Source of the DNA: Candidatus Tayloriibacteriota bacterium
GTDB lineage: Bacteria; Patescibacteriota; Minisyncoccia; Phycocordibacterales; PALSA-1337
Assembly (NCBI GenBank): GCA_023269245.1
Contig: JAHFMB010000009.1
Coordinates: forward strand, 1-16,373
DNA: 16,373 nt
Direction of reading: 5' to 3'
How positions within the stretch are numbered: the first letter of the stretch is position 1; every line of letters starts with the position of its first letter. A program made the translations under genes and the position numbers. Below, in pieces: positions 2,901 to 16,373 of this stretch. The notes beneath the pieces are model-generated. The model did not search any database and was not told the DNA's origin. It saw only the letters and a program-made list of their open reading frames with translations.

Positions 2901-4508
2901 ATGTCCATCCAAGACGGAAAAGTGTTCCTGTACATATCGAAAAACCGCAACGCCCTCGTAGTTGGCGTACTTATGGTTGTACAGGTGGCACTTTCTGTTG
3001 TGCTTTCGATTTCGCTTGCTGGCCATTTGATTTGGCCTGAGAAAAGTTCTGCCGCAGCCGGTGCGCCGCTCAAAATAGCATATGAGGGACGTCTTACCGA
3101 TAGTTCGGGTAATGCCCTTGGCGGTACGGGCACGGTCTATTGTTATCGTTTTTCTATCTATGATGCCTCATCGGGAGGGAACAAGCTGTGGCCGGGTGGG
3201 ACGCCGACAAATACCACTGCAACGACGACGGACGGGGTTTTCAATGCTGTTGTTGGACAGGCAGACACCCTAAGTTCGTCGGTCTTTGATTTTTCGACGA
3301 CATCCATTGCGTATCTCCAAGTCGAAGTGAACACGGTCACATCTACCTGCGGCGGTTCGTGGGAGGCGCTCTTGCCGCGCCAGCAGGTCCTCTCATCGGG
3401 ATATGCGATGCAGTCTGCAAATGTGTATGGGTCGCTCTTGAAAACTGATCCAACTCTCAATATTGTCCAAGTCGGCGCCGGCGGCCAAGCAAACCCGGTT
3501 GAGCTTGCGCTCGATACGAACAATACGACTGCAGAATATGTCGGACAGTCGTGCTCCACGAGCGGCTACATGTGGTACAACTCAGTGACGACGCAGGCGC
3601 TCATCTGCGAGAATGGCGTTATAGAAGAATTGGGCACCTCCGGTACGACTACTATTGCAGCCATCAACGCGAACGGCGGTACGCCGGCAAGCGTGGGGAC
3701 GGTCAATTTTGATAATGCGAACGGTGTGACCTTCGGTATCAACCAAGGTACAATCACCGCGAGCGTGAATGCGGCTGGAGGAGGACAAACCATATCACAT
3801 TGGCCACCGGTCCCTACAGGATTAGCATCGAATACAAATAACACCGGGACCTCAGGAGCTACAGGAGGGTCAACACAGTTTTCTGCAGTGTTCCGCGTGG
3901 CACCTATGATTGTTGAGGATGCAGTTACGTATAACCGCGCAAATCTCTGGGTATCCAATGTGACCGTTGCCGGTACAGGAACCGCCTCGGTGAACCGCTA
4001 TGTGGGAATATATACCTTGAATGGCGGAACGGCGTTGTCACTACTCTCATCATATATGTTCAGACACGAAATGACGCAGAACAGCGTCACGGCGGTGAGC
4101 CATAGGTTTTACTGGGGGACCAATAGCACGTCGAACAGTTCATCTTCGGGGGGCAACATATCGGCAAACTATGCTGGTGTTCGCGCCCTCCCTATTCTTA
4201 CCGGGGCCAACTCGTTCTCCGCAGGCCAGTACTGGATTGTATACGGACAGAACAATATCACGGGCGGGTCTAACGTCGTGTCTGGATATAACAACATGTT
4301 CCTCAATGAATCACAGACGACCGCTGGCCAGCTCGGATCGGCGGCTACCATATCGCCATTCAGATTCCTCGGTGTTTTTTCATCTACTACGAATACCAAC
4401 GTTGTCACTGCTGTCTTCATGCCAAGCTCCATAAATACCACCGCTATCACAAATACAGGCGGTACAAGCCAGCACTTGTGGCCGTATATCAACCTCATCA
4501 GCTCATAA
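2901..4508 (+). CDS. Membrane-anchored surface protein with phage tail-fibre-like sequence
   Basis: 535 residues. Residues 18-45 form one hydrophobic helix, a signal or N-terminal anchor. Residues 55-170 are a beta domain of the type IAYEGRLTDSSGNAL ... GVFNAVVG ... YLQVEVN ... LPRQQVLSSGYAMQSA, a pattern I associate with tail-fibre and collar-type proteins and bacterial surface adhesins. At 221-245, GYMWYNSVTTQALICENGVIEELG is the repeat seen where tail fibres list node data. At 265-291, VGTVNFDNANGVTFGINQG followed by a TITASVN segment strongly recalls the SNGVSFG-type repeats of tailed-phage fibres in metagenomes. The C-terminal half (300-535) is rich in Asn, Thr, Ser and Gly with regular strands, and is probably the receptor-binding or spike part. 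No SD is visible before the ATG at 2901. The next gene starts one base after its stop. The best reading is an adhesin or receptor-binding protein held by the cell membrane; a true virion protein would not usually carry the anchor helix. Confidence 0.7.
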   Translation: MSIQDGKVFLYISKNRNALVVGVLMVVQVALSVVLSISLAGHLIWPEKSSAAAGAPLKIAYEGRLTDSSGNALGGTGTVYCYRFSIYDASSGGNKLWPGGTPTNTTATTTDGVFNAVVGQADTLSSSVFDFSTTSIAYLQVEVNTVTSTCGGSWEALLPRQQVLSSGYAMQSANVYGSLLKTDPTLNIVQVGAGGQANPVELALDTNNTTAEYVGQSCSTSGYMWYNSVTTQALICENGVIEELGTSGTTTIAAINANGGTPASVGTVNFDNANGVTFGINQGTITASVNAAGGGQTISHWPPVPTGLASNTNNTGTSGATGGSTQFSAVFRVAPMIVEDAVTYNRANLWVSNVTVAGTGTASVNRYVGIYTLNGGTALSLLSSYMFRHEMTQNSVTAVSHRFYWGTNSTSNSSSSGGNISANYAGVRALPILTGANSFSAGQYWIVYGQNNITGGSNVVSGYNNMFLNESQTTAGQLGSAATISPFRFLGVFSSTTNTNVVTAVFMPSSINTTAITNTGGTSQHLWPYINLISS

Positions 4509-5257: not shown

Positions 5258-6262
5258 ATGAAGAAATTTTTTATTATACAAATAGTGTTCGGGGTGATAC
5301 TCATCGTGTTGTTCGTGGGATACATGAACACCTCTGCATCGCGCGGTGCGGTATCCATCGTGGCGACACCGGTCGCCATGCCGCATCAGGCGCTACAGAC
5401 TGGGAATGCCACGTCGTCGCAGTTTTCATTCATAAATCCGATCATTGGCGCCGGCATCAACAAACATTTCATCATCAATTTTAAGCCGCTCAAAGCGCAG
5501 TTGCAGGACATCCAAAAAAAGTATTCAGCGAAAACCTATGTGTATTTCTTGTACCTCAACAACGCGGCGTGGGTTGGCTTGAATGAGCGGGATGAATTTA
5601 CTGCGGCGAGCACTATCAAAGTACCGATTGCTATGGCAATCATGAAAGCTGTCGAGGATAAAAAACTCAACTTGTCTGATTCGTATCCGCTCGCCGATCT
5701 CGACTTGGATAAAGGCTTTGGGGATCTCTACAAGGTCGGCGCCGATCGGGAATTTACTGTTGAAGAGTTGATGACAATTATGCTCAAACAATCCGACAAC
5801 ACCGCCATGAAAGCCGTCATTGGCATATTTGATCGTATCGGCATTCCTGATCCATTGGCCAATATATACGAATTTCTTGGATGGGAATTTACCCAGAAAC
5901 TTCCTGAGTTTGGCGCGGCACCTGATTACTCGAAAATCAATCTCAAAACGCTCTCGAATTTGTTTCTTGCGCTGTATGACGCCAAATATGTAAGTGTTGA
6001 ACATTCGGGTAACATATTGGCATACCTCTCAGACACGCCGTTCGTCGATCGGATTGTGGCGGGAGTTCCTTCGGACGTCGTGGTAAGTCACAAAATAGGC
6101 ACAGCGGCAGGGGACAACACGTATTCCGATTGCGGCATTATCTATGCACCGAATCGGCATTATGTCCTGTGCTTGGGTGTGAGCGGCACCACTGAAAAAA
6201 ACGCAAGCATGTTTATGGCCGATATTTCCAAAGTGGTCTATGAATATGTCATAAAGAATTGA
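5258..6262 (+). CDS. Exported beta-lactamase-fold serine hydrolase (class A-like, not a typical penicillinase)
   Basis: 334 residues with an N-terminal membrane helix (4-22) and a spacer, so the catalytic domain (about 75-334) should lie outside the membrane. The three active-site elements of the serine beta-lactamase/DD-peptidase fold are present: S118-T-I-K121 (nucleophile and lysine), S179-D-N181, and H278-K279-I-G281-T (KTG equivalent, with Ile for Thr). The helix after SxxK and the NLKTLSNLF segment (228-236) also match the class A-like family (Beta-lactamase2). The class A omega-loop motif E-x-x-[LI]-N with the deacylating Glu166 is not recognisable: the loop reads FGAAPDYSKIN (218-228). 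It is therefore more likely a peptidoglycan peptidase/esterase or a non-hydrolysing binder than a resistance enzyme. The ATG at 5258 lies 19 bases after the previous stop with no SD; the methyltransferase start follows its TGA by one base. TGA as its stop argues for the standard code. Confidence 0.8.
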   Translation: MKKFFIIQIVFGVILIVLFVGYMNTSASRGAVSIVATPVAMPHQALQTGNATSSQFSFINPIIGAGINKHFIINFKPLKAQLQDIQKKYSAKTYVYFLYLNNAAWVGLNERDEFTAASTIKVPIAMAIMKAVEDKKLNLSDSYPLADLDLDKGFGDLYKVGADREFTVEELMTIMLKQSDNTAMKAVIGIFDRIGIPDPLANIYEFLGWEFTQKLPEFGAAPDYSKINLKTLSNLFLALYDAKYVSVEHSGNILAYLSDTPFVDRIVAGVPSDVVVSHKIGTAAGDNTYSDCGIIYAPNRHYVLCLGVSGTTEKNASMFMADISKVVYEYVIKN

Positions 6263-6263
6263 T

Positions 6264-6809
6264 ATGAAATTATTCGGAAAAGGAGAGTCAAAGGGAATAA
6301 AGCTTGATGTGGCATGCGGGCAGAACAAACGCGAAGGATTTGTCGGGGTTGATATAGCGCCTGGACCAGGGGTTGACGTCGTCTGGGACCTTGAGCAGTA
6401 TCCGTGGGAGCCGTTCAAAGATAACAGCGTAAAAGAAATCAATGTCAGTCACTATGCCGAGCATACAAAGGACCTGATGAAGTTTATGAATGAAGTTTGG
6501 CGTATTTGCGAAGACGGCGCCAAAGTGACCATTATTGGTCCTTACTACACCTCCATGAGGTGCTGGCAGGATCCGACGCATACCCGCGCTTTGTCCGAGG
6601 CGACATGGCTGTATTATCAAAAATCATGGCGTGAGATAAACAAGCTGGCGCATTATCCGATCGTGTGTGATTACGAAGTGACCAACCTCATTTTGTTTTT
6701 TAACGAACCGTGGAATCAGAAATCTGAAGAGGCAAAGCAGTTTGCCATCAAGCACTATTGGAATGTGGTATCGGACATCATGGTCGAACTCAAAGTCAAG
6801 AAGGTGTAA
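6264..6809 (+). CDS. Small SAM-dependent methyltransferase (class I, type 11-like)
   Basis: 181 residues, soluble. Motif I is KLDVACGQNK (13-22), a variant of the LDLGCGxxK loop that holds SAM, followed by FVGVDIAPG with Asp30 at the end of strand 2, which usually binds the ribose. VSHYAEHTKD (61-70) is in the place of the HVLEH motif after strand 4, then a helix and GAKVTIIGPY (strand 5). QDPTHTRALSEATW (102-115) is a feature of a branch of these enzymes found in bacterial glycan loci and phages. The substrate is unknown; no nucleic-acid or lipid-specific domain is attached. The start codon lies one base after the stop of the beta-lactamase-fold gene, with no SD, so translation is probably coupled. 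Together with the glycosyltransferase it suggests surface glycan tailoring. The family is well supported and the role is open. Confidence 0.8.
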   Translation: MKLFGKGESKGIKLDVACGQNKREGFVGVDIAPGPGVDVVWDLEQYPWEPFKDNSVKEINVSHYAEHTKDLMKFMNEVWRICEDGAKVTIIGPYYTSMRCWQDPTHTRALSEATWLYYQKSWREINKLAHYPIVCDYEVTNLILFFNEPWNQKSEEAKQFAIKHYWNVVSDIMVELKVKKV

Positions 6810-6866
6810 GAATAATGGTGAGGTGCAATAAGGATGCGGTGATTGGGTATCAAACATCAATAACGT

Positions 6867-7391
6867 ATGGTAAAAATTGTTCCTAACATAGAAAAATTAC
6901 TCCGTACAAACACCGCTTTGGTATTTTTGTGCGTGATTTCGATCGGAGTATTAATCTTACTGTTTCGTCACTCCAGTAATAAGGAACCGGTTGTCGCACC
7001 AATTATCACACCGATTTCGTCCACAGTGGGACAGTCATCTGATTTTTCTTCTGTAGGTGTCGAAGATTTGGTGCCTTCTCTATCAGCATCACCATTCAGA
7101 AATGCGCCGGCACCAGAGGCGCTTCCGACGTTTGTCTTTAAGGGCCAAGCAACCGCCAAAACGTCATTTACATGTACCGATGTCTATGACGTGGCGTTGA
7201 TTTATCCAATGTCTATTGATTATCGTTTGTACCCACTTTCTTCACTCTACAACCGCGCAACTCCCTGTGCCAAGGGCACCACATTATCACAAACTATTTC
7301 ACTCGAGCATGTAAGGACTGAGACAGGTTCGACATATTACATAGTTCGTGCGCATCAAGGTAAAAAGGGAGGATGGTATGCGCCATACTAG
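6867..7391 (+). CDS. Single-pass exported protein, unknown function
   Basis: 174 residues, family not recognised. One hydrophobic helix at 15-33, preceded by basic residues, suggests an N-in/C-out anchor. A disordered Pro/Ser/Ala-rich spacer (about 38-85) follows, then a compact C-terminal domain (86-174) with two cysteines (103 and 134) that could form a disulphide. Its end, STYYIVRAHQGKKGGWYAPY, resembles the last strand of a small SH3-like wall-binding domain, but the match is too weak to name it. The gene sits 57 bases after the methyltransferase with no SD before the ATG and no clear promoter in the gap. It is the last gene before the promoter at 7419-7427, so it probably ends the upstream transcription unit. 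Confidence 0.7.
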   Translation: MVKIVPNIEKLLRTNTALVFLCVISIGVLILLFRHSSNKEPVVAPIITPISSTVGQSSDFSSVGVEDLVPSLSASPFRNAPAPEALPTFVFKGQATAKTSFTCTDVYDVALIYPMSIDYRLYPLSSLYNRATPCAKGTTLSQTISLEHVRTETGSTYYIVRAHQGKKGGWYAPY

Positions 7392-7418
7392 GCGTATCAG
7401 AGCTCATCTTCGATAATT

Positions 7419-7427
7419 TGCTATACT
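7419..7427 (+). promoter_or_regulatory. Extended -10 promoter, predicted leaderless start
   Basis: TGCTATACT matches the extended -10 form TGnTATAnT; no -35 is seen at 16-18 bp. The usual distance puts the transcript start at about 7434, one base before the ATG at 7435. TATAAT at 7427-7432 overlaps it; used as the -10, it would start the transcript inside the gene, so the first hexamer is preferred. Confidence 0.55.
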
Positions 7428-7434
7428 ATAATCC

Positions 7435-9492
7435 ATGGATCCTCGGAAACTATTGCGAATAGTAGGCTTTGTTCTTACTTTTGTATTCTTTCTTTGCTCA
7501 TTTTCTTTGCCAGCAAAGGCGACTTTGGTGATAGATGCTTCTTCGCCCGCAACAGTCAAGAGCAACGCCGCAACATTGACGACGGCATCGTTTACACCAC
7601 CGGCGAACTCAGTCCTATACATAGCGGTCTTTTTAAGAAGTGAAGCGTCGCCTGCTGGTCGCAACAATAGTGTTTCGAGTATAACAGATAACCTTGGTTA
7701 TCATCTGACGTATACGCTTCAAGGGCAGTATGGGACGGTCAATACTGATGACGGTCTCGTCTATCTCTACACAGCAGTAGCGACCACATCGCAAGCAATG
7801 ACCGTCAGTGTGACGCAGGCAAGCACCGTTTCGACTGCGCGAGATGCCATGCTGCGAGTTGTGGTTATCAATGGGGCACGGTTGAGCGGGCCGGTTGGCC
7901 AGATTGGCGGTGGCAGGGGAGTGACTGGGGTCGTGAGCGACACATATACATCATCGGCACATGGATCATGGGGATGGCTCATGACGGCTGATTGGTCTGC
8001 CGGAGCGGTTCCGACTCCTGGTACGGGACAAGAAACAGATGATTCGTATAACGTTGCGTCAAAAATTACGGACAGCCTCATAAAACGGACGACGACGACA
8101 CCTACTGCAGGGACATCAGTAACCATGGACACAACCGCGCCGGTATCGGGTTCACAGATAGCGCACTTGTATTTTGAAATGTATCCCGATCCTGATCTCG
8201 GGTACACGACATTCGCGTCTTCAACAAATTTCTTTGTGAATCACACAATGCTCGGTATAGCGGGCGGCAATCCGACCTATACATTTAGCACGTCAACAAC
8301 ATTTAAATTATTGAGCGCCGCCCAGCAGCAACAAACAGGGATAGGCACTTCAACGTCGTCGACATTCGGGCTTTTGAGCGGTTTTCTGAGGTCGTTGTAC
8401 GTGAGTCCGTCACCGACATATACTCAGATTCATTATCACTGGAGAAACGATGATGGATCCGAAGCTGCGGCGACGTCGAAAACAAGTGGTGTTCAGGACA
8501 CTGATATTACATCGCTGGCAAAATCAACGGGAGTGCGGCTGCGTTTTGAGGTCGCCAATAAAGGGGGTACGAAAGTCGGCTATTCCACCCAGCAATTCCG
8601 TCTAGAATATGGTTTAAAATCGACGACCTGTGCTGACATTGGGTCATGGACCGACGTTGGTGCGGTCGCGGGTGATTGGGACATGTTTGATTCATCGAGT
8701 CTGACTGAAGGTGGAAACACAACGAACATCGCGGCCGGCATTGGGGGGGTCGTTGATGGAAATCATACCTTTCTTACCCCGAATGGTGGTATCAAGGATA
8801 CATCGAGTACGGTGTCAGCGATCAATCTGACAAGCGAGCAATTTATCGAGCTTGAATATTCGATACAGGCACTCTCAGCAGCGACTGATGGCGGAGCATA
8901 TTGTTTTCGCGTGACGAACGCGGGAAATCCGACGAATTATTCCTACACTGTATATCCGCAGGCGACTCTTGCGGCCGGTGGGGGATATCTGTATTTCTCG
9001 GTTGATGGAACAACTGAAGGATTTGGCACAGTAACACCGGGCACCGTGGCGGCTACTTCGAGTATTTTGACGGTACGTACAGACAACTCGACGGGATTTT
9101 TCGTGACCGTACGGCGTTCTGATGCGACGGGAACCATGTCATCCAGCGGCACATACATACCCGACAAAACAGCCTGGGTCCCAGGTGCCAATACATCACT
9201 AGCTGGAAATGCGACGGCATCTACCACTGAACCTCTGACCTTGCAGTTCAGGGTACGCCAGGCAGGTACTGACGGAGCCAATTATTCATCGGCATGGTGG
9301 GGGACAGCAGATACCACGGTGGCGGCCTTGTTTGCAGGGTTTCCAGCAAGCAACCAAAATATCATTGACCGCAGTTCATCAGCAGTCTCTACGACCACGG
9401 CCTATGTCTTGTATAACCTGAATGTACCGACTACTCAGAAAACAGGGGCATATTCCGGAGATATCATTTATACCGTTACGACAAATATATAA
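7435..9492 (+). CDS. Large multidomain exported surface protein ending in a WxL-like module
   Basis: 685 residues. A signal peptide (1-29, cleavage near PAKA-T) is followed by a first beta domain (30-250) containing TPPANSVLYIAVFLRSEA and SSITDNLGY, a pattern seen in lectin-like surface domains. Residues 255-320 form a second strand-rich unit (FKLLSAAQQQQTGIG ... FGLLSGFLRSLYV). The third domain (about 328-512) begins with QIHYHWRNDDGSEAAA and has RLRFEVANKGG, the lone cysteine pair C399/C490, and IELEYSIQA; I have the impression of a recurrent module of bacterial secreted proteins but cannot name it. The C-terminal module (about 518-685) matches the whole of the next protein: FRVRQAGTDGA, SSAWWGTAD and TGAYSGDIIYTVTTN. 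There is no C-terminal anchor or sorting signal, so retention probably goes through that module, as for WxL proteins of Firmicutes. The ATG at 7435 sits directly after a promoter and there is no SD. Confidence 0.8.
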   Translation: MDPRKLLRIVGFVLTFVFFLCSFSLPAKATLVIDASSPATVKSNAATLTTASFTPPANSVLYIAVFLRSEASPAGRNNSVSSITDNLGYHLTYTLQGQYGTVNTDDGLVYLYTAVATTSQAMTVSVTQASTVSTARDAMLRVVVINGARLSGPVGQIGGGRGVTGVVSDTYTSSAHGSWGWLMTADWSAGAVPTPGTGQETDDSYNVASKITDSLIKRTTTTPTAGTSVTMDTTAPVSGSQIAHLYFEMYPDPDLGYTTFASSTNFFVNHTMLGIAGGNPTYTFSTSTTFKLLSAAQQQQTGIGTSTSSTFGLLSGFLRSLYVSPSPTYTQIHYHWRNDDGSEAAATSKTSGVQDTDITSLAKSTGVRLRFEVANKGGTKVGYSTQQFRLEYGLKSTTCADIGSWTDVGAVAGDWDMFDSSSLTEGGNTTNIAAGIGGVVDGNHTFLTPNGGIKDTSSTVSAINLTSEQFIELEYSIQALSAATDGGAYCFRVTNAGNPTNYSYTVYPQATLAAGGGYLYFSVDGTTEGFGTVTPGTVAATSSILTVRTDNSTGFFVTVRRSDATGTMSSSGTYIPDKTAWVPGANTSLAGNATASTTEPLTLQFRVRQAGTDGANYSSAWWGTADTTVAALFAGFPASNQNIIDRSSSAVSTTTAYVLYNLNVPTTQKTGAYSGDIIYTVTTNI

Positions 9493-9538
9493 AATACGAC
9501 GCAGGTAGTGGATGTGGATAAGTCGTGTGGTGCCGGCG

Positions 9539-9547
9539 TGGTATAAT
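9539..9547 (+). promoter_or_regulatory. Extended -10 promoter for the surface-complex operon
   Basis: TGGTATAAT is a perfect extended -10 (TGnTATAAT). No good -35 is found at 16-18 bp, which is normal for this class. The predicted start near 9554 gives a leader of about 53 bases, T/A-rich and without SD, up to the ATG at 9607. It lies in the longest gap of the window (9493-9606) and probably drives 9607-15148. Confidence 0.65.
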
Positions 9548-9606
9548 GCTTGCTACAGGCATTCACATTTTCTTTTATTTTATTAATTTACACTAAGTAC
9601 ACAACT

Positions 9607-10314
9607 ATGCGCACATTCTCGCGTGTCTCAGGCACATCGAACAATCGCTTCAAGTCATTCATTGCCGCTCTCTTGGCAACGGTTATCTTGACTTACTCTG
9701 GCATGTATGGCCTTCAGGCGGCAACTTCCTCGTCGTCTCCGACACTTACCGCTACTGTTGCGGCGGCTCTCACGTTTACTGTTTCTACCGATCAGTTTGC
9801 TACCATAAACCCGGGTACCATATCGTATGCAACGACGACTCTTGCAGTTGCAACAAACGAAAGCAACGGCTGGAATGTGACGTTGTATGGCTCAAACAAG
9901 ACAACGGGTAACAACAACCTTCAACTGGCGGGCAATACTGCATCTATCCCTGATCAGACTGAATGGATCCCGGCCGCGGGTAATGCGACCACATCAGCTG
10001 GTAACTCAGTCGTCCGCGCTTCACTCAACAGCTCTGGAAATGTGCTTGCGTTCCGAGTCATGACCGCATCATCAAGTAACGGTGCAGCATTCACCGCATC
10101 GACATGGTGGGGTACGACGGATGCTGATGGAACTGCAAAGTGGGCCGGTATCGCTAGCACTACAGGTGGTCCGCGATATATTGGTAGCGCCGGCGTAGGC
10201 TCATACAGTGCTTCTACTCACCTGAATACAGTTCAGTATTATCTCTTGGCCTCGGTCACTCAGCCGACAGGTGCTTATAGCGCCCCATTGACATATACCG
10301 CCACCTCGAACTAA
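9607..10314 (+). CDS. Secreted WxL-like surface protein, likely abundant
   Basis: 235 residues from the ATG at 9607. An in-frame TTG at 9550 would add 19 hydrophobic residues, but it lies upstream of the predicted transcript start, so I reject it. The signal peptide has a long basic start (MRTFSRVSGTSNNRFK) and ends about LQAAT (36-40). The rest is one beta domain: LTATVAAALTFTVSTDQFATINPG, NGWNVTLYGS (a Trp near the position of the first W-x-L), LAFRVMTASSSNGAAF, TASTWWGTTDADG and TGAYSAPLTYTATSN at the very end. The last four blocks align with the C-terminus of the 685-residue protein just upstream. There is no membrane anchor. The strong promoter and small size suggest a major surface component. 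The DUF916-like gene follows after 10 bases, as WxL genes do beside DUF916 genes in Firmicutes. WxL-like is my inference from fold-level pattern and neighbours, not a clear motif match. Confidence 0.75.
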   Translation: MRTFSRVSGTSNNRFKSFIAALLATVILTYSGMYGLQAATSSSSPTLTATVAAALTFTVSTDQFATINPGTISYATTTLAVATNESNGWNVTLYGSNKTTGNNNLQLAGNTASIPDQTEWIPAAGNATTSAGNSVVRASLNSSGNVLAFRVMTASSSNGAAFTASTWWGTTDADGTAKWAGIASTTGGPRYIGSAGVGSYSASTHLNTVQYYLLASVTQPTGAYSAPLTYTATSN

Positions 10315-10324
10315 ACTGCACCAT

Positions 10325-11260
10325 ATGAAATCGTGCCGCTTTATCCTTGGTGTAGGAATCACCGGAGTCCTATCTATCATATCTGCGGCTTTGTTGATGG
10401 CACCTCCTGTCGCCCTGGCGGGTACAGGTCTTTCGGTGCAGCCGATTAAAATCTCACAGACGATGAAGCCCGGGGATACTATCTCCGGTAAGGTTCTTCT
10501 TACGAATGCCAGCCCGGAAGACGTGGTGGTTGATTTGTCGATCCAGGACTTCGTGCCAAGTGCCGGAAGCGACTCATTCAATTTCGTTGGCCGCGCCGAA
10601 GGTGTGACGACAGTCCGTGACTGGATCAAGTTCGATATGCCGAAGGATAGTTTTACCTTCAAAGAAGGAGATGTCCGCGAAATCCCCTATACTATCACCG
10701 CCCCGAAAAACGCAGAGCCTGGCAGCCACTTCGGTGTATTGTTCTTCAAAGCTGTCCGCGCGACTGATGCCAATTCGTCGTTTAAAGTCGGTACACAGGT
10801 CGGCGTGTTGGTGTTTGTGACTATTCCTGGAAAGTTTCAGCAAAAGGGAACCATCAAGGACTTTACTGTTCCATCATTTCTACAGACAGGCCCGGTAGTC
10901 TTTAATATGCAGTTCGAAAATACCGGTACGGTCCACTTTGAGCCAAAGGGAACGATTGAGATAACCAACATGTTTGGCAGTAAGGTTGGTTCGGTGCCGA
11001 TCGAGGGGTACGCAGTACTGCCGACAGGCATAAAAAAGATGGCATTTACGTGGCATACCGTTGGACTGCTTTTGGGAAAATACAGCGTGGTTGCCAATGT
11101 ATATGACACCGAAGGCAATGTCATCAGTACCGCTTCAGCCAGTTTTATGGCACTACCGATTTGGTACGCAATTATCTGTATCGTTATTCTCGTCGTGCTT
11201 TATTTCATTATTAGATTCCTGAAGCGTCGCGTCTCATTTACCGTTAGCTTGAAGAAATAG
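10325..11260 (+). CDS. DUF916/WxL-interacting-protein-like membrane protein
   Basis: 311 residues: signal peptide (1-32), two Ig-like beta domains, one C-terminal membrane helix (about 279-298) and a basic cytosolic tail. Domain 1 (35-168) has GLSVQPIKISQTMKPGDTI, GKVLLTNASPEDVVVDLSI and IPYTITAPKNAEPGSHFGVLFF. This is the N-terminal layout of DUF916 (peptidoglycan-binding domain of WxL-interacting proteins), where a PG[DQ] turn leads to an N-rich strand and a later P..A.PG.Y/H motif. Domain 2 (170-275: KGTIKDFTVPSF, FNMQFENTGTVHFEPKGTIEI, GKYSVVANVYD) matches the usual second domain (DUF3324-like). Known family members are anchored in the same topology and bind WxL proteins and wall. Here the gene follows the WxL-like gene by 10 bases with no SD (the context CACCATATG is shared with the 5258 gene). 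It is likely the hub holding the secreted partner at the membrane. Confidence 0.75.
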   Translation: MKSCRFILGVGITGVLSIISAALLMAPPVALAGTGLSVQPIKISQTMKPGDTISGKVLLTNASPEDVVVDLSIQDFVPSAGSDSFNFVGRAEGVTTVRDWIKFDMPKDSFTFKEGDVREIPYTITAPKNAEPGSHFGVLFFKAVRATDANSSFKVGTQVGVLVFVTIPGKFQQKGTIKDFTVPSFLQTGPVVFNMQFENTGTVHFEPKGTIEITNMFGSKVGSVPIEGYAVLPTGIKKMAFTWHTVGLLLGKYSVVANVYDTEGNVISTASASFMALPIWYAIICIVILVVLYFIIRFLKRRVSFTVSLKK

Positions 11261-11272
11261 TTCCGATTATGA

Positions 11273-12790
11273 ATGAAAAAATTTCTCTTAGTTATTCTTA
11301 TAGGAATCATTCTTGCGCCTCAAGCCTGGGTACGTGGTGCCGTTAGTTTGACGTCGAACCTTAGGATTACTGTGTGCAATGGTTCCGACTGCGGCGACGA
11401 TACTCCGCCGTCTGTTCCGACAAACCTGGTAGTGACCGCGGTCACCACTTCCCAGATTAACCTTTCATGGGATGCCTCAATCGATCCCGGATCTCCCGCG
11501 TCGGGTGTTTCAGGTTATGCGATATATCGTAATGGGGGCGCGTCTGCGATTGCGACCACGACAGGGACCTCATATTCGGACACCGGACTGAGTTCAGGGA
11601 CACTCTATTCATACTCGGTTCTTGCGTATGACGCTATTCTCAATGAAAGTGCTCAGAGCTCAACCGTTTCGACTACGACCATCTCAATTCCCTCGAACGC
11701 TCCTGTTCCATCGAATGGGTCGCCATCCGGTTCACTTGCCGCAGGGACGACACAGACGACGGTATCATTGGATACGGATATCGCTGCCACCTGCAGATAC
11801 GGTACAACGGCCGGCACAGCCTATGTAGGCATTCCCAACACATTCGGAACGACCGGTGGCACTTCGCATTCGACTATCGTCGCCGGCCTTGCCAATGGTA
11901 TAACCAAAACATTGTATGTGCGTTGCCAGAGCTCGACGAACGTACCGATGACGAGTGATTACGTCATTTCATTCTCGATTGCGTCGCCATCATCGAGTAG
12001 TAGCGGTGGTGGAGGCGGGGGAGGCGCCGGATCGCCGCCTTCACCCGTCAATCCGGCCAATCAGGTGAACGTCATTGTCCGCGGTATTGCATACCCGGGC
12101 AGCCGTGTGTCGCTGCTCAAAGATGGGCAGACCGCAGCCACCACGCAATCAGGTCCTGATGCCCGCTTTGAGGTTCAGCTTTCAGGTGTAGGCGAGGGGA
12201 CGTTTACGTTTAGCGTATGGGCAATGGACAAAAATGGCATCCGTTCCGCACTATATCCATTTACCGTCACCTTGACCTCGGGGGCAACGACAGTGATTAG
12301 TGGCGTGTTTATACCACCAACGGTCAGTCTTGAGTATGAGACGGTCAAGCGGGGAGACCCGCTCCGTGTCATCGGACAGTCGGCACCGCAGGCAAAAGTG
12401 TCGGTTATTTTTCACTCAGACACGGAAATAATCGAGGATGTTTCAGCCGATGCGCAAGGGCTTTGGACGTACGCGCTGGATACATTGCGTTTGGACTACG
12501 GCGACCACACGACCCAGGCACGCTCGGTAAGCAACAAAGATATAAGCACGCTCTCCAAGCTCGTTTCTTTCAAGGTGGGCACGGAAAATGTTGTGGCAAA
12601 AAAGGAGGTTCAAGCATCAAAGTCTGATATGAATGGAGACAATCGCGTCGACTTGGCTGATTTCAGCATCATGCTGTTTTGGTACAAGCGTACATTGACT
12701 GGCAAATCCCCAGCGGGAGTCGATTTGAATAAGGACGGAAAGGTCGACCTGGTTGACTTTAGCATTTTTGCGTATAACTGGACCGGCTAA
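11273..12790 (+). CDS. Secreted Fn3/Ig multidomain protein with C-terminal type I dockerin
   Basis: 505 residues: signal peptide (1-22); fibronectin III domain (about 47-138: PTNLVVTAVTTSQINLSW, GYAIYRNG, YSYSVLAYD); a second Fn3/Ig-like unit (143-237); a Ser/Gly linker (238-257); two bacterial Ig-like domains (258-346 and 347-436: PGSRVSLLKDGQ, APQAKVSVIF); and a dockerin (451-505). The dockerin has two full calcium-binding loops, D452-N454-D456-D463 and D484-N486-D488-D495, each followed by the same FSI helix start, so it is nearly two-fold symmetric. A dockerin binds a cohesin, and the next two genes encode cohesins, so the partner is in the same operon. No enzyme domain is present: the cargo is a stack of adhesive or spacer domains. 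The ATG at 11273 is 12 bases after the DUF916-like gene, without SD; an ATG at 11269 is out of frame. Confidence 0.85.
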   Translation: MKKFLLVILIGIILAPQAWVRGAVSLTSNLRITVCNGSDCGDDTPPSVPTNLVVTAVTTSQINLSWDASIDPGSPASGVSGYAIYRNGGASAIATTTGTSYSDTGLSSGTLYSYSVLAYDAILNESAQSSTVSTTTISIPSNAPVPSNGSPSGSLAAGTTQTTVSLDTDIAATCRYGTTAGTAYVGIPNTFGTTGGTSHSTIVAGLANGITKTLYVRCQSSTNVPMTSDYVISFSIASPSSSSSGGGGGGGAGSPPSPVNPANQVNVIVRGIAYPGSRVSLLKDGQTAATTQSGPDARFEVQLSGVGEGTFTFSVWAMDKNGIRSALYPFTVTLTSGATTVISGVFIPPTVSLEYETVKRGDPLRVIGQSAPQAKVSVIFHSDTEIIEDVSADAQGLWTYALDTLRLDYGDHTTQARSVSNKDISTLSKLVSFKVGTENVVAKKEVQASKSDMNGDNRVDLADFSIMLFWYKRTLTGKSPAGVDLNKDGKVDLVDFSIFAYNWTG

Positions 12791-12795
12791 ATCTT

Positions 12796-13722
12796 ATGAC
12801 TACACGATGCCGCCCAATCCACACCGCATATACGCTCGCACTGGTTTTTTTGTTGGCCGCCATACCATGCGGAATGTCCGAGGCGCACGCAGCGACCATT
12901 GCGTTTGACCCACAAGAAACTACCGTTGGCATGGCCCAACCATTTCTTGTCGGTATAACTATTGATTCTGATGTGGCGGTAAACACTATTCGTGCCATCA
13001 TTGATGTTCCCGAATCGATGGATGTGCTTGAAGCGTCGGATGGAAACTCAATCGTCAATTTTTGGGTGGAACGTCCGCATATTACTAACTCTCACCAACT
13101 TGTGTTCGCCGGCATCATCCCGGGCGGGTTTGCCGGAAATAAAGGGAAACTCATTACACTTACTGTGCGCGCCAAGAAATTGGGAACATTTGATTTTATT
13201 TTTAATCCTTCCTCAGGGATTTATGCGAACGATGGGTCAGCGACCCGTCAGAGTATCGCGTCTCGCCCAGTGCGGTTGAATGTAGTCGCGGGAAAAGAAA
13301 ATATTCGGAATAGTATTCCTGATACGACCGCTCCAGAGACGTTTGTCCCTGTGTTGGCGCAGATTCCCGATGGTGGAAAGGGAAGTTGGGCGGTTTCATT
13401 TGAGGCGCAGGACAAGAGTTCGGGAATTTCTTCATATGAGGTCGCTGAATCTTTTGTTCGAATTGACCCATTGAACACCCGCTCTATTGCGCGTTTGAAA
13501 TGGCGCCCAGCTCGTAGCCCGTACATTCTCGCTGATCAGCAACTGTCTTCGCACATTTATATTCGGGCAATTGATGGAAATGGGAACGACCGGGTAGCGC
13601 ATGTTGCACCTCGGGCCGTACCCTCATGGTATCGGACGCCGGGAGGTTATATACTTATAGCGTTAGTTCTATTTTTTGCCTTGTATGCCCTTAGCAAACG
13701 TTTACATTGGAAACTTGAATAG
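12796..13722 (+). CDS. Membrane-anchored cohesin protein A
   Basis: 308 residues: signal peptide (1-33, HAA-T), cohesin domain (34-165), Ig-like domain (about 178-275) and a membrane helix (283-300) with a short basic cytosolic end. The cohesin is recognised from its strand order: ATIAFDPQETTVGMAQPFLVG, an inner strand AVNTIRAIIDVP, NSIVNFWVERP, VFAGIIPGGFAGNKGKLITL and GIYANDGSA before the last strand VRLNVV. These are the same landmarks as in the cohesin of the next protein ([IV]NFW, GF[AS]G..GK, ANDG). The second domain (DTTAPETFVPV ... FEAQDKSSGISSYEVAES ... IRAIDGNGNDRVAHV) looks like an Ig-like spacer. It starts 5 bases after the dockerin gene. The expected role is to display a cohesin on the outer face of the membrane and bind the dockerin protein. 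The cohesin call is by pattern and should be tested with a profile search. Confidence 0.8.
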   Translation: MTTRCRPIHTAYTLALVFLLAAIPCGMSEAHAATIAFDPQETTVGMAQPFLVGITIDSDVAVNTIRAIIDVPESMDVLEASDGNSIVNFWVERPHITNSHQLVFAGIIPGGFAGNKGKLITLTVRAKKLGTFDFIFNPSSGIYANDGSATRQSIASRPVRLNVVAGKENIRNSIPDTTAPETFVPVLAQIPDGGKGSWAVSFEAQDKSSGISSYEVAESFVRIDPLNTRSIARLKWRPARSPYILADQQLSSHIYIRAIDGNGNDRVAHVAPRAVPSWYRTPGGYILIALVLFFALYALSKRLHWKLE

Positions 13723-15148
13723 ATCTGGATGGGTCTACGGGACTGTGCGCCTACTCCAGGTCGGAGCGCTGCTCGGTGTGTTTTTCTTTGGAAGCTACGC
13801 ATGTGCGCAAGCGGCTACGTTGTCGGCCATTCCCGCCGGGGGAACCTCTTCGTTTGCTGTCGGCCAGCTGTTCTCGATAACAGTTGCGGTCACATCATCG
13901 GGCACCGAATCGCTCAACGCGGTGTCGGGGTCGTTATCATACCCGACGGACATTCTTCAGATAGTTTCGGCAGACAAAACGAATGGCATTATCAACTTTT
14001 GGATAAGCGAACCAGGTTTTTCAAATCCTATCGGCCAGGCCCAATTTGAAGGAGGGGTATACAATCCTGGATTTAGCGGTTCTCAAGGGAAAGTGGTAAC
14101 TTATTTGTTCAAGGCAAAAACGGTCGGGACCGCGGACCTCACATTTACTCATGCCACCATCTTGGCAAATGATGGACAAGGTACGAATATTCTCGAACGG
14201 ACCAACCCGCTTCATCTCACCATCACCGCCGGTGCTCCTGATCAGCAGATAGTTCCCGAATCAAGTATACCTCCAGGTATATCTGTTCGGTCGGCGACAC
14301 ATCCGGACCAACATGCGTGGTATAGCTCTAGCATGGTTGCTATAGCGTGGGATGTCCCGCCGGGCGTGACCGCTGTACGCACGGGCATCGATCACAACCG
14401 TCAGTCCATACCTACAACAATAGCCGGGAGTGTTATTTCCGAAATGACGCTCAATCTTGAAGATGGTACATGGTATTTTCATATTCAGACCAAAGATGCA
14501 AAAGGATGGGGGTCTGTCTCGAGCTTTAAGATCAACATAGACACCTCGGCCGTCAATCCTCCGACATTCGATACATTCCCGACAGTTTTGACCGAAGGGG
14601 ATGTTCTGTTGGTTTCCGGTTCTGCACCAAAAAATGCAGTGATCCGCATGTCTCTCAAAAATAGCGGCGGTGATGTGCTTGAGCAATCCGCGAAGGCCGG
14701 CGATGATGGCAGATTCCAGGCAGTATGGAATGCGAAACTCAATAATGACAGTTATACCTTGAGTGCAGAAGCCGTAAACAGCCGCGGTCTCAAGAGTTCG
14801 CGTAGCCAAGATGTCGTAGTCACGGTCAATCCGACTGTTATTGAGCGTGTTGCCAAACCGGTTATTGATTATGCAACTATTTTCGTCCTTGTGGCCGGCA
14901 TTGTTGTGCTGTGCGTCTTATGGGTGTGGTACCTTGTCCAACGTGCGCGACATTTCCGCAAGAAGGTTCGCGCTGACATCAAGCGCACCAATCAGCTGAT
15001 TCATGTCCAGTTCAAGAAGCTTCTCGATCAAGCGCGCAGCAGGCGCAAACTGACCGCCGAAGAAGAGCGCATGATGTCCATCATTCGCGAAGGTGTTCAG
15101 GATATTGAGGAAGAAGTTGAAGATGAGGTGCGAGATATTGGCCAATAA
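13685..15148 (+). CDS. Membrane-anchored cohesin protein B with charged cytoplasmic tail
   Basis: 487 residues from the ATG at 13685, which overlaps the previous gene by 38 bases; TTG 13676 and TTG 13715 are alternatives, and no SD decides. A signal peptide (about 1-44, CAQAA) is followed by a cohesin domain (45-181: INFWISEPGF, GVYNPGFSGSQGK, ILANDGQG). Next come a beta domain (203-290: YSSSMVAIAWDVPPGV, TGIDHN, GTWYFHIQTKDAKGWGSVSSFK), an Ig-like domain (295-383: VLLVSGSAPKNAVIRMSL, GRFQAVW, YTLSAEAVNSRG) and a membrane helix (395-418). The last 70 or so residues are cytosolic, basic at first and then strongly acidic (LTAEEERMMSIIREGVQDIE...), probably a helical coiled coil. Such a tail on a surface anchor suggests contact with a cytosolic partner. 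It is probably a tandem paralogue of protein A in its cohesin, with different outer domains. It is the last gene of the surface operon. Confidence 0.8.
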   Translation: MPLANVYIGNLNRSGWVYGTVRLLQVGALLGVFFFGSYACAQAATLSAIPAGGTSSFAVGQLFSITVAVTSSGTESLNAVSGSLSYPTDILQIVSADKTNGIINFWISEPGFSNPIGQAQFEGGVYNPGFSGSQGKVVTYLFKAKTVGTADLTFTHATILANDGQGTNILERTNPLHLTITAGAPDQQIVPESSIPPGISVRSATHPDQHAWYSSSMVAIAWDVPPGVTAVRTGIDHNRQSIPTTIAGSVISEMTLNLEDGTWYFHIQTKDAKGWGSVSSFKINIDTSAVNPPTFDTFPTVLTEGDVLLVSGSAPKNAVIRMSLKNSGGDVLEQSAKAGDDGRFQAVWNAKLNNDSYTLSAEAVNSRGLKSSRSQDVVVTVNPTVIERVAKPVIDYATIFVLVAGIVVLCVLWVWYLVQRARHFRKKVRADIKRTNQLIHVQFKKLLDQARSRRKLTAEEERMMSIIREGVQDIEEEVEDEVRDIGQ

Positions 15149-15186
15149 TTCCACCTTTTTCAGGCTATTTCTGTAACACATATATT

Positions 15187-15203
15187 CTACTTGTTTCAAG
15201 TAG
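15187..15203 (+). repeat. Inverted repeat overlapping the pyrG -35 (possible operator)
   Basis: CTACTTG-TTT-CAAGTAG is a perfect 7-bp palindrome with a 3-base centre. Its right arm covers the first three bases of the -35. No T-run follows on either strand, so it is not a standard terminator. Its position fits a repressor or activator site; this is inference. Confidence 0.5.
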
Positions 15204-15229
15204 ACAAAGCCGTACCGCTTCACTAGAAT
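15201..15229 (+). promoter_or_regulatory. Sigma-70-type promoter of pyrG, predicted leaderless
   Basis: The -35 is TAGACA (15201-15206, 5 of 6 to consensus) and the -10 is TAGAAT (15224-15229, 5 of 6), with an optimal 17-base spacer. The usual distance puts the transcript start at 15236, which is the A of the pyrG ATG, so the mRNA would have no leader. Confidence 0.7.
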
Positions 15230-15235
15230 GAGCCT

Positions 15236-16373
15236 ATGAAGCGCACGCCTGGGAAAAAGACTAAGGCCATTGCTCACAAATACATCTTCGTTACCGGAGG
15301 CGTGATGTCCGGCGTCGGCAAAGGCATTGCCACCTCATCCATCGGTACACTGCTCGCTGCAAAAGGATTTAAGGTCAGCTTGGTGAAAGTTGACCCCTAT
15401 TTGAATGTGGATGCAGGTACTATGAATCCCATCGAACATGGGGAAGTATTCGTACTCAATTCAGGAATGGAGACTGATCAAGACATGGGGAACTACGAGC
15501 GTTTTCTCAACCGCGATCTGACGCCGGATGATTACATCACGAGCGGCATGGTCTACAAGTATGTTATCGAAAAAGAGCGTGCTCTCGGCTATGGTGGCAA
15601 GTGTGTCGAAGCAGTACCGCATATCCGCGATGAGATTGTCAGGCGGTATGAACATTCGGCTCGTGTCAACAAGTCCGATATTTCTATCATTGAAATTGGT
15701 GGCACCGTCGGCGACTATCAGAACATCATGTTCATCGAAGCTGCCCGTGCGCTCAAGATTCGTCATCCACAGGACGTAGCATTCTTGATGGTCTCGTATT
15801 TACCAACTCCCGGAACACTCGGTGAGATGAAGACCCGTCCGACCCAGAATGCGGTCAATCAGTTGGCATCATATGGTGTTACTACTGATATTGTTATTGC
15901 CCGTGCTTCGACGCCACTCGATGATCGACGCAAAGAGAAGATTGCAACTGCCTGCAACATTCTGCCAAAGCGCGTGATTTCTGCGCCCGATATCAAGAGT
16001 ATCTACGATGTGCCAGTCAATTTTGAACATGATAAGCTCGCGGAAATTATTCTCGACGTTCTTCATGTTGATCCGAAAGTGCTCAAGGGACTTTCGGCGC
16101 ATCCGGTTCTTTCTATGCCTGAATGGAAGAAGATGGCTCGTGGCATCAAGAATCACGAGAACAAAACATTGAACATTGCCATTGTCGGAAAATATTTTAA
16201 TACCGGTGATTTTGTTCTGACTGATGCGTACCTGTCAGTGTTGGAGGCGGTAAAATTTTCGGGATACGCAGTGGGGATGAAGCCTATTATTCATACGATT
16301 AATTCGAGGGATTTTGAAAAAAATGAGGTAAGAGGTAAGAGATATGAGGCAAGAAAAGCACCAAAAAACACTG
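15236..16373 (+). CDS. pyrG: CTP synthase, N-terminal 379 residues (3' end outside window)
   Basis: CTP synthase makes CTP from UTP, ATP and glutamine in the cytosol. The synthetase domain (about 15-280) is clear: KYIFVTGGVMSGVGKG (15-30, P-loop), KVDPYLNVDAGTMNPIEHGEVFV, ETDQDMGNYERF, EIGGTVGDYQN (153-163) and MKTRPTQNAV (198-207, UTP/CTP-site region). The glutaminase domain opens with LNIAIVGKYFNTGDFVLTDAYLSVLEAVK (312-340), a form with an insertion before DAY compared with the E. coli enzyme. The catalytic Cys-His-Glu lie outside the window. About 14 extra residues (MKRTPGKKTKAIAH) precede the usual start, which fits the promoter predicting transcription exactly at this ATG. Near residues 361-377 the protein becomes a basic, hydrophilic stretch encoded by heptamer repeats. 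The frame stays open to the last base. It is separate from the surface operon by promoter and function. Confidence 0.93.
   Translation, partial: MKRTPGKKTKAIAHKYIFVTGGVMSGVGKGIATSSIGTLLAAKGFKVSLVKVDPYLNVDAGTMNPIEHGEVFVLNSGMETDQDMGNYERFLNRDLTPDDYITSGMVYKYVIEKERALGYGGKCVEAVPHIRDEIVRRYEHSARVNKSDISIIEIGGTVGDYQNIMFIEAARALKIRHPQDVAFLMVSYLPTPGTLGEMKTRPTQNAVNQLASYGVTTDIVIARASTPLDDRRKEKIATACNILPKRVISAPDIKSIYDVPVNFEHDKLAEIILDVLHVDPKVLKGLSAHPVLSMPEWKKMARGIKNHENKTLNIAIVGKYFNTGDFVLTDAYLSVLEAVKFSGYAVGMKPIIHTINSRDFEKNEVRGKRYEARKAPKNT
16325..16359 (+). repeat. Imperfect 7-bp tandem repeats inside pyrG
   Basis: Five consecutive purine-rich heptamers: GAGGTAA, GAGGTAA, GAGATAT, GAGGCAA, GAAAAGC. The first two are identical and the fourth differs by one base. 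Since 7 is not a multiple of 3, three units are needed to keep frame; the stretch encodes a basic, hydrophilic segment (EVRGKRYEARK) at the place where CTP synthases carry a variable surface loop. Confidence 0.55.

Follow-up and report, generated by a model that had tools for sequence, protein, structure and literature searches.

We analysed a 16,373-nucleotide stretch (the window) that forms part of an 814-kb, 83% complete assembly of a Candidatus Tayloriibacteriota bacterium from the Candidate Phyla Radiation (CPR). Positions 7435-15148 carry a row of genes that, on balance, we read as encoding a pilus-like surface fibre, made with the help of a WxLIP/chaperone-like protein, together with a membrane anchor formed by a dockerin and cohesins (Table 1). 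The row is real and conserved, and its use of cohesin and dockerin is unusual and testable. A preliminary description made from the letters of the DNA had placed a whole operon at 9607-15148, containing a WxL-like protein, a DUF916-like membrane protein, a dockerin protein and two membrane cohesins. The five adjacent plus-strand open reading frames (ORFs) do lie at these coordinates, separated by 10, 12 and 5 bases (no gap exceeding 12), with the last pair overlapping by 38. That span was one gene short at its upstream end, where the 7435-9492 product carries the same C-terminal domain as the 9607 product.

The conservation of the row is best seen in the close relatives. When GTDB genomes were scanned by pattern with the family of the 10325 product, 35 loci emerged: L023-L040 are the 18 close ones and L041-L057 the 17 distant ones. 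Among the close loci, the WxLIP-like gene, the dockerin protein and one or more cohesins were present in all 16 loci not cut by a contig end; L024 and L025 end directly after the WxLIP-like gene, the dockerin of L029 was seen by eye, and the frames of L031 look broken. Two or more cohesins were found in 15 of the 16, and a pilin-like gene stood immediately upstream in each of the 16 loci with room for it. Ahead of this pilin-like gene, a larger protein sharing its domain was encoded in 12 of the 14 loci with room, which assigns the 7435-9492 gene to the unit. The shared domain occupies the C-terminal ~160 residues of the 7435-9492 product (phmmer E 2.5e-13). In 13 of 15 relatives no more than 50 bases separate the WxLIP-like and dockerin genes, and in 13 of 15 the two cohesin ORFs overlap, with L024, L025 and L031 left out and with starts taken from the longest ORFs, which inflates overlaps. 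Some neighbourhood profiles were built partly from the loci under comparison; single-sequence searches with the window proteins recovered the same genes. The preliminary description had staked its proposal on the gene order being kept in related genomes, and it is kept, beyond chance.

Table 1. Genes and other features of the row in the window.
Feature	Position	Strand	Remarks
685-aa secreted protein gene	7435..9492	+	outside the span of the preliminary description
Extended -10 promoter-like element TGGTATAAT	9539..9547	+	element seen in the sequence (TATAAT at 9542), promoter only plausible
235-aa secreted pilin-like subunit gene	9607..10314	+	predicted helix 11-39, beta-rich domain after it
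311-aa membrane protein gene	10325..11260	+	WxLIP (DUF916)/pilus-chaperone-like two-domain ectodomain, C-terminal helix 279-302
505-aa secreted protein gene	11273..12790	+	fn3, Ig-like domain, C-terminal type I dockerin
Dockerin match	12623..12766	+	protein end, two Ca-loop repeats with DFSI in each
308-aa small membrane cohesin gene	12796..13722	+	profile match 12829-13338; C-terminal hydrophobic segment, short tail
487-aa large membrane cohesin gene	13685..15148	+	cohesin, Big_13 Ig domain, hydrophobic segment, conserved charged tail

For the 10325 product, the predicted structure agrees with that of Enterococcus WxLIP across both domains, and pilus chaperones were also among the top folds. 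The model consists of two beta domains and a C-terminal helix, the arrangement expected of a two-domain WxLIP. Among the matches to the whole two-domain model, E. faecium WxLIP aligned the most residues (221 and 217; Foldseek E 1.9e-9), and one of the matched entries is a structure solved in the WxL-bound state. The 10325 product itself had no PF06030 match in Pfam at E <= 1, and weak matches were found in 13 of the 31 members of its family (best 5.9e-4). The earlier DUF916-like assignment therefore holds at the level of the fold. The best public-record matches of the family include Kaiserbacteria, Taylorbacteria and other Parcubacteria. These two results, the E. faecium WxLIP with a WxL-bound entry as the best-aligned two-domain match and the weak PF06030 matches, would suit a WxL/WxLIP-type complex of the kind first proposed, without a fibre: the 9607 product would be kept at the cell wall by the 10325 product, and the dockerin protein would be bound independently by the cohesins.

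The 9607 product speaks against such a complex. It had no Pfam match at E <= 1, WxL (PF13731) included, and its family had no WxL match among the PDB sequences. WxL was also absent from the best 25 of the 30 families matched at E <= 0.5 by 48 related or neighbouring sequences; these families are ordered by E, and the remaining five should have E > 0.16. The WxL-like label is thus not supported; what the protein resembles, remotely, is the Pam pilin domain. In a profile-profile comparison, its family was linked to a distant CPR family with a probability of 98.1. The 7435-9492 product, which is likely the tip or adhesive subunit, scored 12.7 bits at 9004-9483 against NF058581, the NCBIfam "Pam pilus" pilin domain, under the cut-off of 55. 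With no support for a WxL identity of the 9607 product, and with the Pam pilin domain as its remote kin, a pilus-like fibre is the likelier reading, and we regard a WxL/WxLIP complex without a fibre as unlikely.

Some observations touch these two families from the side. The top Foldseek match of the 10325 model was V. cholerae RbmA (E 1.6e-10), and in two distant loci (L041:10966-12381 and L056:11109-12011) the gene that follows the WxLIP-like one gave a sub-threshold match to the NCBIfam model 'RbmA-like PamR'. A second, paralogous WxLIP-like gene occurs in the same genome (C28:5642-6625, L065) and in a same-genus relative (G017, C15:12973-14082, L067). Both paralogues are flanked by secreted proteins whose C-termini look pilin-type by eye, and neither cohesin nor dockerin was detected alongside them.

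Among the known systems closest to the row is the CPR Pam pilus system, represented in NCBIfam by NF058578 (PamR), NF058579 (PamT) and the pilin C domain NF058581, which likewise has a pilin-like gene beside a WxLIP-like one. In 148 genomes of the order, we found 9 NF058581 hits over the cut-off, spread across 5 genomes. A WxLIP-like gene lay within 4 kb on the same strand at all 9 of these, and at 27 of the 37 hits with E <= 0.05. At locus L083 of genome G097, the genes follow the window's exact order: large pilin, small pilin, WxLIP-like, dockerin protein, cohesin, cohesin. Since NF058581 hits adjoin WxLIP-like genes and the order at L083 is identical, the window, as judged from its sequence, is a diverged relative of the Pam system. 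It is not a member by the curated cut-off, because its pilin-like proteins fall far below that of NF058581. None of the Pam names met in the NCBIfam scans refers to cohesin or dockerin parts. In the distant loci, 12 of 17 had the order WxLIP-like, pilin-like (~360 residues), WxLIP-like, and a cohesin lay downstream in 6 of 17.

Two other systems share features with the row. The WxL/WxLIP systems (DUF916-DUF3324) of Firmicutes share with the window the two beta domains and C-terminal helix of the 10325 product, which match solved WxLIP. They differ in that the window's partner protein has no WxL match, the host is a CPR bacterium, and dockerin and cohesin genes are attached. The predicted fold of the 10325 product also resembles the chaperones of chaperone-usher pili (Caf1M, FimC, CfaA). 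However, this product is apparently membrane-tethered, no usher gene was seen in the window, and the subunit fold is only weakly pilin-like.

The assignment of a dockerin to the 11273 product was confirmed. Its C-terminal domain is of type I, with 25.7 bits for Dockerin_1 (PF00404) against a curated cut-off of 22.9, and the family profile matched solved dockerins (5nrm, for example, E 2.4e-6). The same product contains an fn3 domain (E 1.4e-8) and a Big_6-like domain slightly under the cut-off. D[FYL]S[ILV] is present in both dockerin loops in the window and in 14 of 18 compared relatives. Loop symmetry in dockerins has been linked to two binding modes, and the window encodes two cohesins beside its symmetric-loop dockerin.

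The two cohesin assignments were upheld through the protein families, although the single sequences fell under the cut-off or had no match. Alone, the 13685 product scored 12.7 bits against PF00963 (cut-off 24.1), while PF00963 was recognised at E <= 0.1 in 21 of the 29 members of its family, with a best value of 1.3e-10. Two homologues are listed by NCBI as 'cohesin domain-containing protein'. The 12796 product had no Pfam match. It was found by the cohesin-part profile of the 13685 family (E 1.1e-20); its own family matched PF00963 weakly (3 of 16 members at E <= 0.1, best 0.0021), and the profile of this family reached the solved scaffoldin cohesin 5aoz (E 0.0034). Both products end in a hydrophobic segment as measured on a crude scale, and in the 13685 product a conserved charged tail lies beyond it.

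Two other cohesin-profile proteins are encoded in the same genome, at C22:4497-5810 (L064, 437 residues) and C37:176-2269 (L066, 697 residues); no dockerin was detected near either. A bAvd / 23S-IVP domain (PF22296, PF05635) was seen in cohesin-type ORFs, namely one member of the 12796 family and protein P0030. The former is probably L028:12872-14152, the longest of the 16 (426 residues). These ORFs may be either fusions or ORF run-ons.

The dockerin and cohesins also travel together across wider samples. In the order, 42 genomes had a match to the WxLIP-like profile (E <= 1e-10) and 59 had one to Dockerin_1. The cohesin-protein profile matched in 66 at E <= 1e-5, in some cases over its Ig part only. 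Dockerin and cohesin occurred together in 43 genomes (Fisher p about 1e-14), or in 42 (p 1.2e-14) when two genomes with an Ig-part-only match were removed; all co-occurrence p values given here are optimistic because the genomes are related. A cohesin-profile match lay less than 2.5 kb downstream on the same strand at 45 or more of the 88 dockerin sites, in at least 39 genomes. The sites were counted after neighbouring dockerin hits of one ORF had been merged, and the cohesin count took in 53 of the 66 profile-positive genomes and left out further matches within the same ORF, so these pairings are lower bounds. We also sampled 147 genomes from the class to which the Saccharibacteria genome carrying L042 belongs. 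With curated models, Dockerin_1 was found in 35 of them, PF00963 in 22 and both in 18 (p 3.6e-10). Of the 59 dockerin sites, merged in the same way, 15 or more had a same-strand cohesin no further than 2.5 kb downstream, in at least 12 genomes.

The typical arrangement is a trio. In 17 regions (L067-L083), which were picked for dockerin or cohesin hits and thus show context and not frequency, a dockerin protein was followed by two or more cohesins in 16. The departures were L082, with one gene in between, and L081, where the dockerin is missing. A WxLIP-like gene stood upstream in four (L067, L068, L080 and L083), and in others the neighbours include ORFs of 1,000-5,000 residues. Giant ORFs ending in a dockerin and followed by two cohesin genes were seen at L074:1-15291 (5,096 residues) and L030:10881-15302 (1,473 residues). 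Six ORFs in the class sample (G063:C8, G279:C6, G279:C8, G211:C16, G195:C12 and G296:C26) seem to contain both a cohesin and a dockerin, as judged by equal open-frame length and place. Such proteins could polymerise with themselves as scaffoldins do.

Several results weigh against a fibre joined to a dockerin/cohesin anchor. The WxLIP matches of the 10325 model were equal in Z to single-domain Ig matches, and their Foldseek TM-scores were low (0.31-0.43). The 9607 product scored 16.3 bits against NF058581, where the cut-off is 55, and its model (pLDDT 67) had no Foldseek match at E <= 0.001, so remote homology is what supports the name 'pilin'. The genome also encodes a sortase, on contig C22, which carries L064 too; non-covalent anchoring is therefore not forced. 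The trio and the pilin/WxLIP genes are, in addition, found apart from each other. Of the 17 distant loci, which have WxLIP-like as well as pilin-like genes, 11 showed no cohesin (two of these end within 1.7 kb), and none lay downstream at 43 of the 88 dockerin sites in the order. The WxLIP-like gene shared 22 genomes with cohesin (p 0.013) and 23 with dockerin (p 0.026), a far looser co-occurrence than that of dockerin and cohesin.

This loose co-occurrence, and the presence of a WxLIP-like gene at only 4 of the 17 regions above, imply that the trio may be a neighbouring module and not a part of the pilus. The window would then hold two independent modules, WxLIP/pilin and dockerin/cohesin, the second of which might, for example, display the Ig-rich dockerin protein as an adhesin. 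The 13 of 17 regions in which no WxLIP-like gene was detected upstream, and the 11 of 17 distant WxLIP loci lacking a cohesin, would fit this explanation. However, independent modules would not account readily for the conservation of the order in all 16 close relatives that could be tested, nor for the short WxLIP-like-to-dockerin gap (at most 50 bases in 13 of 15), and we consider full independence rather improbable.

The most familiar setting of the cohesin-dockerin clip is in machines that digest cellulose. We nevertheless consider it very improbable that the row encodes a reduced cellulosome that breaks down glycans. Cohesins are present, the type I dockerin resembles cellulosomal ones, and the exoglucanase model CbhB matches the 11273 product over residues 37-227 (E 7.4e-17), but this match reaches 60.7 bits against a cut-off of 1950 and spans model positions 697-878 of 997, over the fn3 region. 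The assembly contains one dockerin, and none of the five products showed a catalytic domain, where a cellulosome would have dockerins on carbohydrate-active enzymes. We take the CbhB match to reflect shared fn3-type sequence, probably not an enzyme. The complex was described from the start as free of hydrolases, and this agrees with the domain searches. Peer et al. in 2009 reportedly dealt with cellulosomal and non-cellulosomal cohesin-dockerin pairs alike. The window has in common with such pairs a type I dockerin with duplicated loops and its cohesins. It differs in that no hydrolase was found, and in the fixed trio, which stands here beside pilin-like and WxLIP-like genes and elsewhere behind giant surface ORFs.

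The fibre-and-anchor reading can be put as a sequence of steps. The 9607 product, with the 7435 product as a tip or variable subunit, would provide subunits of beta-sandwich fold that are kin to the Pam pilin domain of CPR, and these would polymerise into the fibre. The 10325 product would be tethered in the membrane and act as a WxLIP/chaperone-like protein, receiving or holding the pilin-like subunits as WxLIP holds WxL. The 11273 product might end the fibre or tie it down, with its type I dockerin docking in a calcium-dependent manner onto both membrane cohesins (12796 and 13685). Of the two, the large cohesin would reach the cytoplasm through its conserved charged tail. The trio itself might be a reusable plug-in anchor whose cargo differs by lineage, giant surface proteins taking the place of the fibre elsewhere, and the whole may serve in attachment. 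Possible capture of the dockerin protein by membrane cohesins, next to the DUF916/WxLIP-like protein, had been proposed earlier; the conserved gene order and the predicted fold support that part of the proposal, and its WxL part is unsupported.

The extended -10 element noted ahead of the operon (TGGTATAAT) is indeed present. The promoter scan found no -35 paired with the element ending at 9547, and promoter-like matches in 6700-15400 were not above those in shuffles (8 versus a mean of 12.1), which makes a promoter here only plausible. Downstream, the row is followed by a CTP synthase gene from 15236. Two upstream genes were also noted. The gene at 2901-4508 encodes a 535-residue protein, perhaps another surface fibre, whose N-terminus is weakly similar to NF053851, the mosaic adhesive trimer fibre family (E 3.6e-5, under the cut-off). 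The product of 5258-6262 is class A beta-lactamase-like (PF13354, E 3.5e-40) and lies below the NCBIfam cut-offs of the 25 models listed.

In the open-access literature, a scope that leaves out preprints and most subscription papers, we found none joining 'WxL' with 'Candidate Phyla Radiation' or 'cohesin domain' with 'Parcubacteria', and no paper on the Pam pilus system. The remark that the combination seems undescribed fits this literature. It needs tempering in two respects: NCBIfam names a Pam pilus system in CPR, and a passage of PMC10633639 reports an essential dockerin protein, SEML1_0315, in Southlakia epibionticum, for which its authors speculate on host-glycan targeting. In an excerpt of PMC10066038, a giant Omnitrophota ORF with non-cellulosomal dockerins is described in terms of possible adhesins. 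In passages of PMC10633639 and PMC11665869, the discussion of CPR attachment is led by type IV pili and adhesins.

The reading bears on the way in which ultrasmall CPR bacteria attach to other cells. Tentatively, and with less confidence than for the window itself, we suggest that cohesin and dockerin may serve in CPR/Patescibacteria as a general plug-in membrane anchor for fibres or giant adhesins. In such an anchor, a base protein ending in a dockerin would dock on two co-encoded membrane cohesins, of which one would have a tail in the cytoplasm for signalling or anchoring. A WxLIP-assisted pilus would be one of its cargoes, and the essential dockerin protein of Southlakia epibionticum might be part of one. 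If the reading of the window is true, a conserved cohesin-dockerin anchor free of hydrolases and tied to a second, non-type-IV pilus-like system would constitute a concrete and testable attachment apparatus. The 'dockerin' annotations in CPR genomes would then gain another meaning, compared with the glycan-related one suggested in the passage of PMC10633639.

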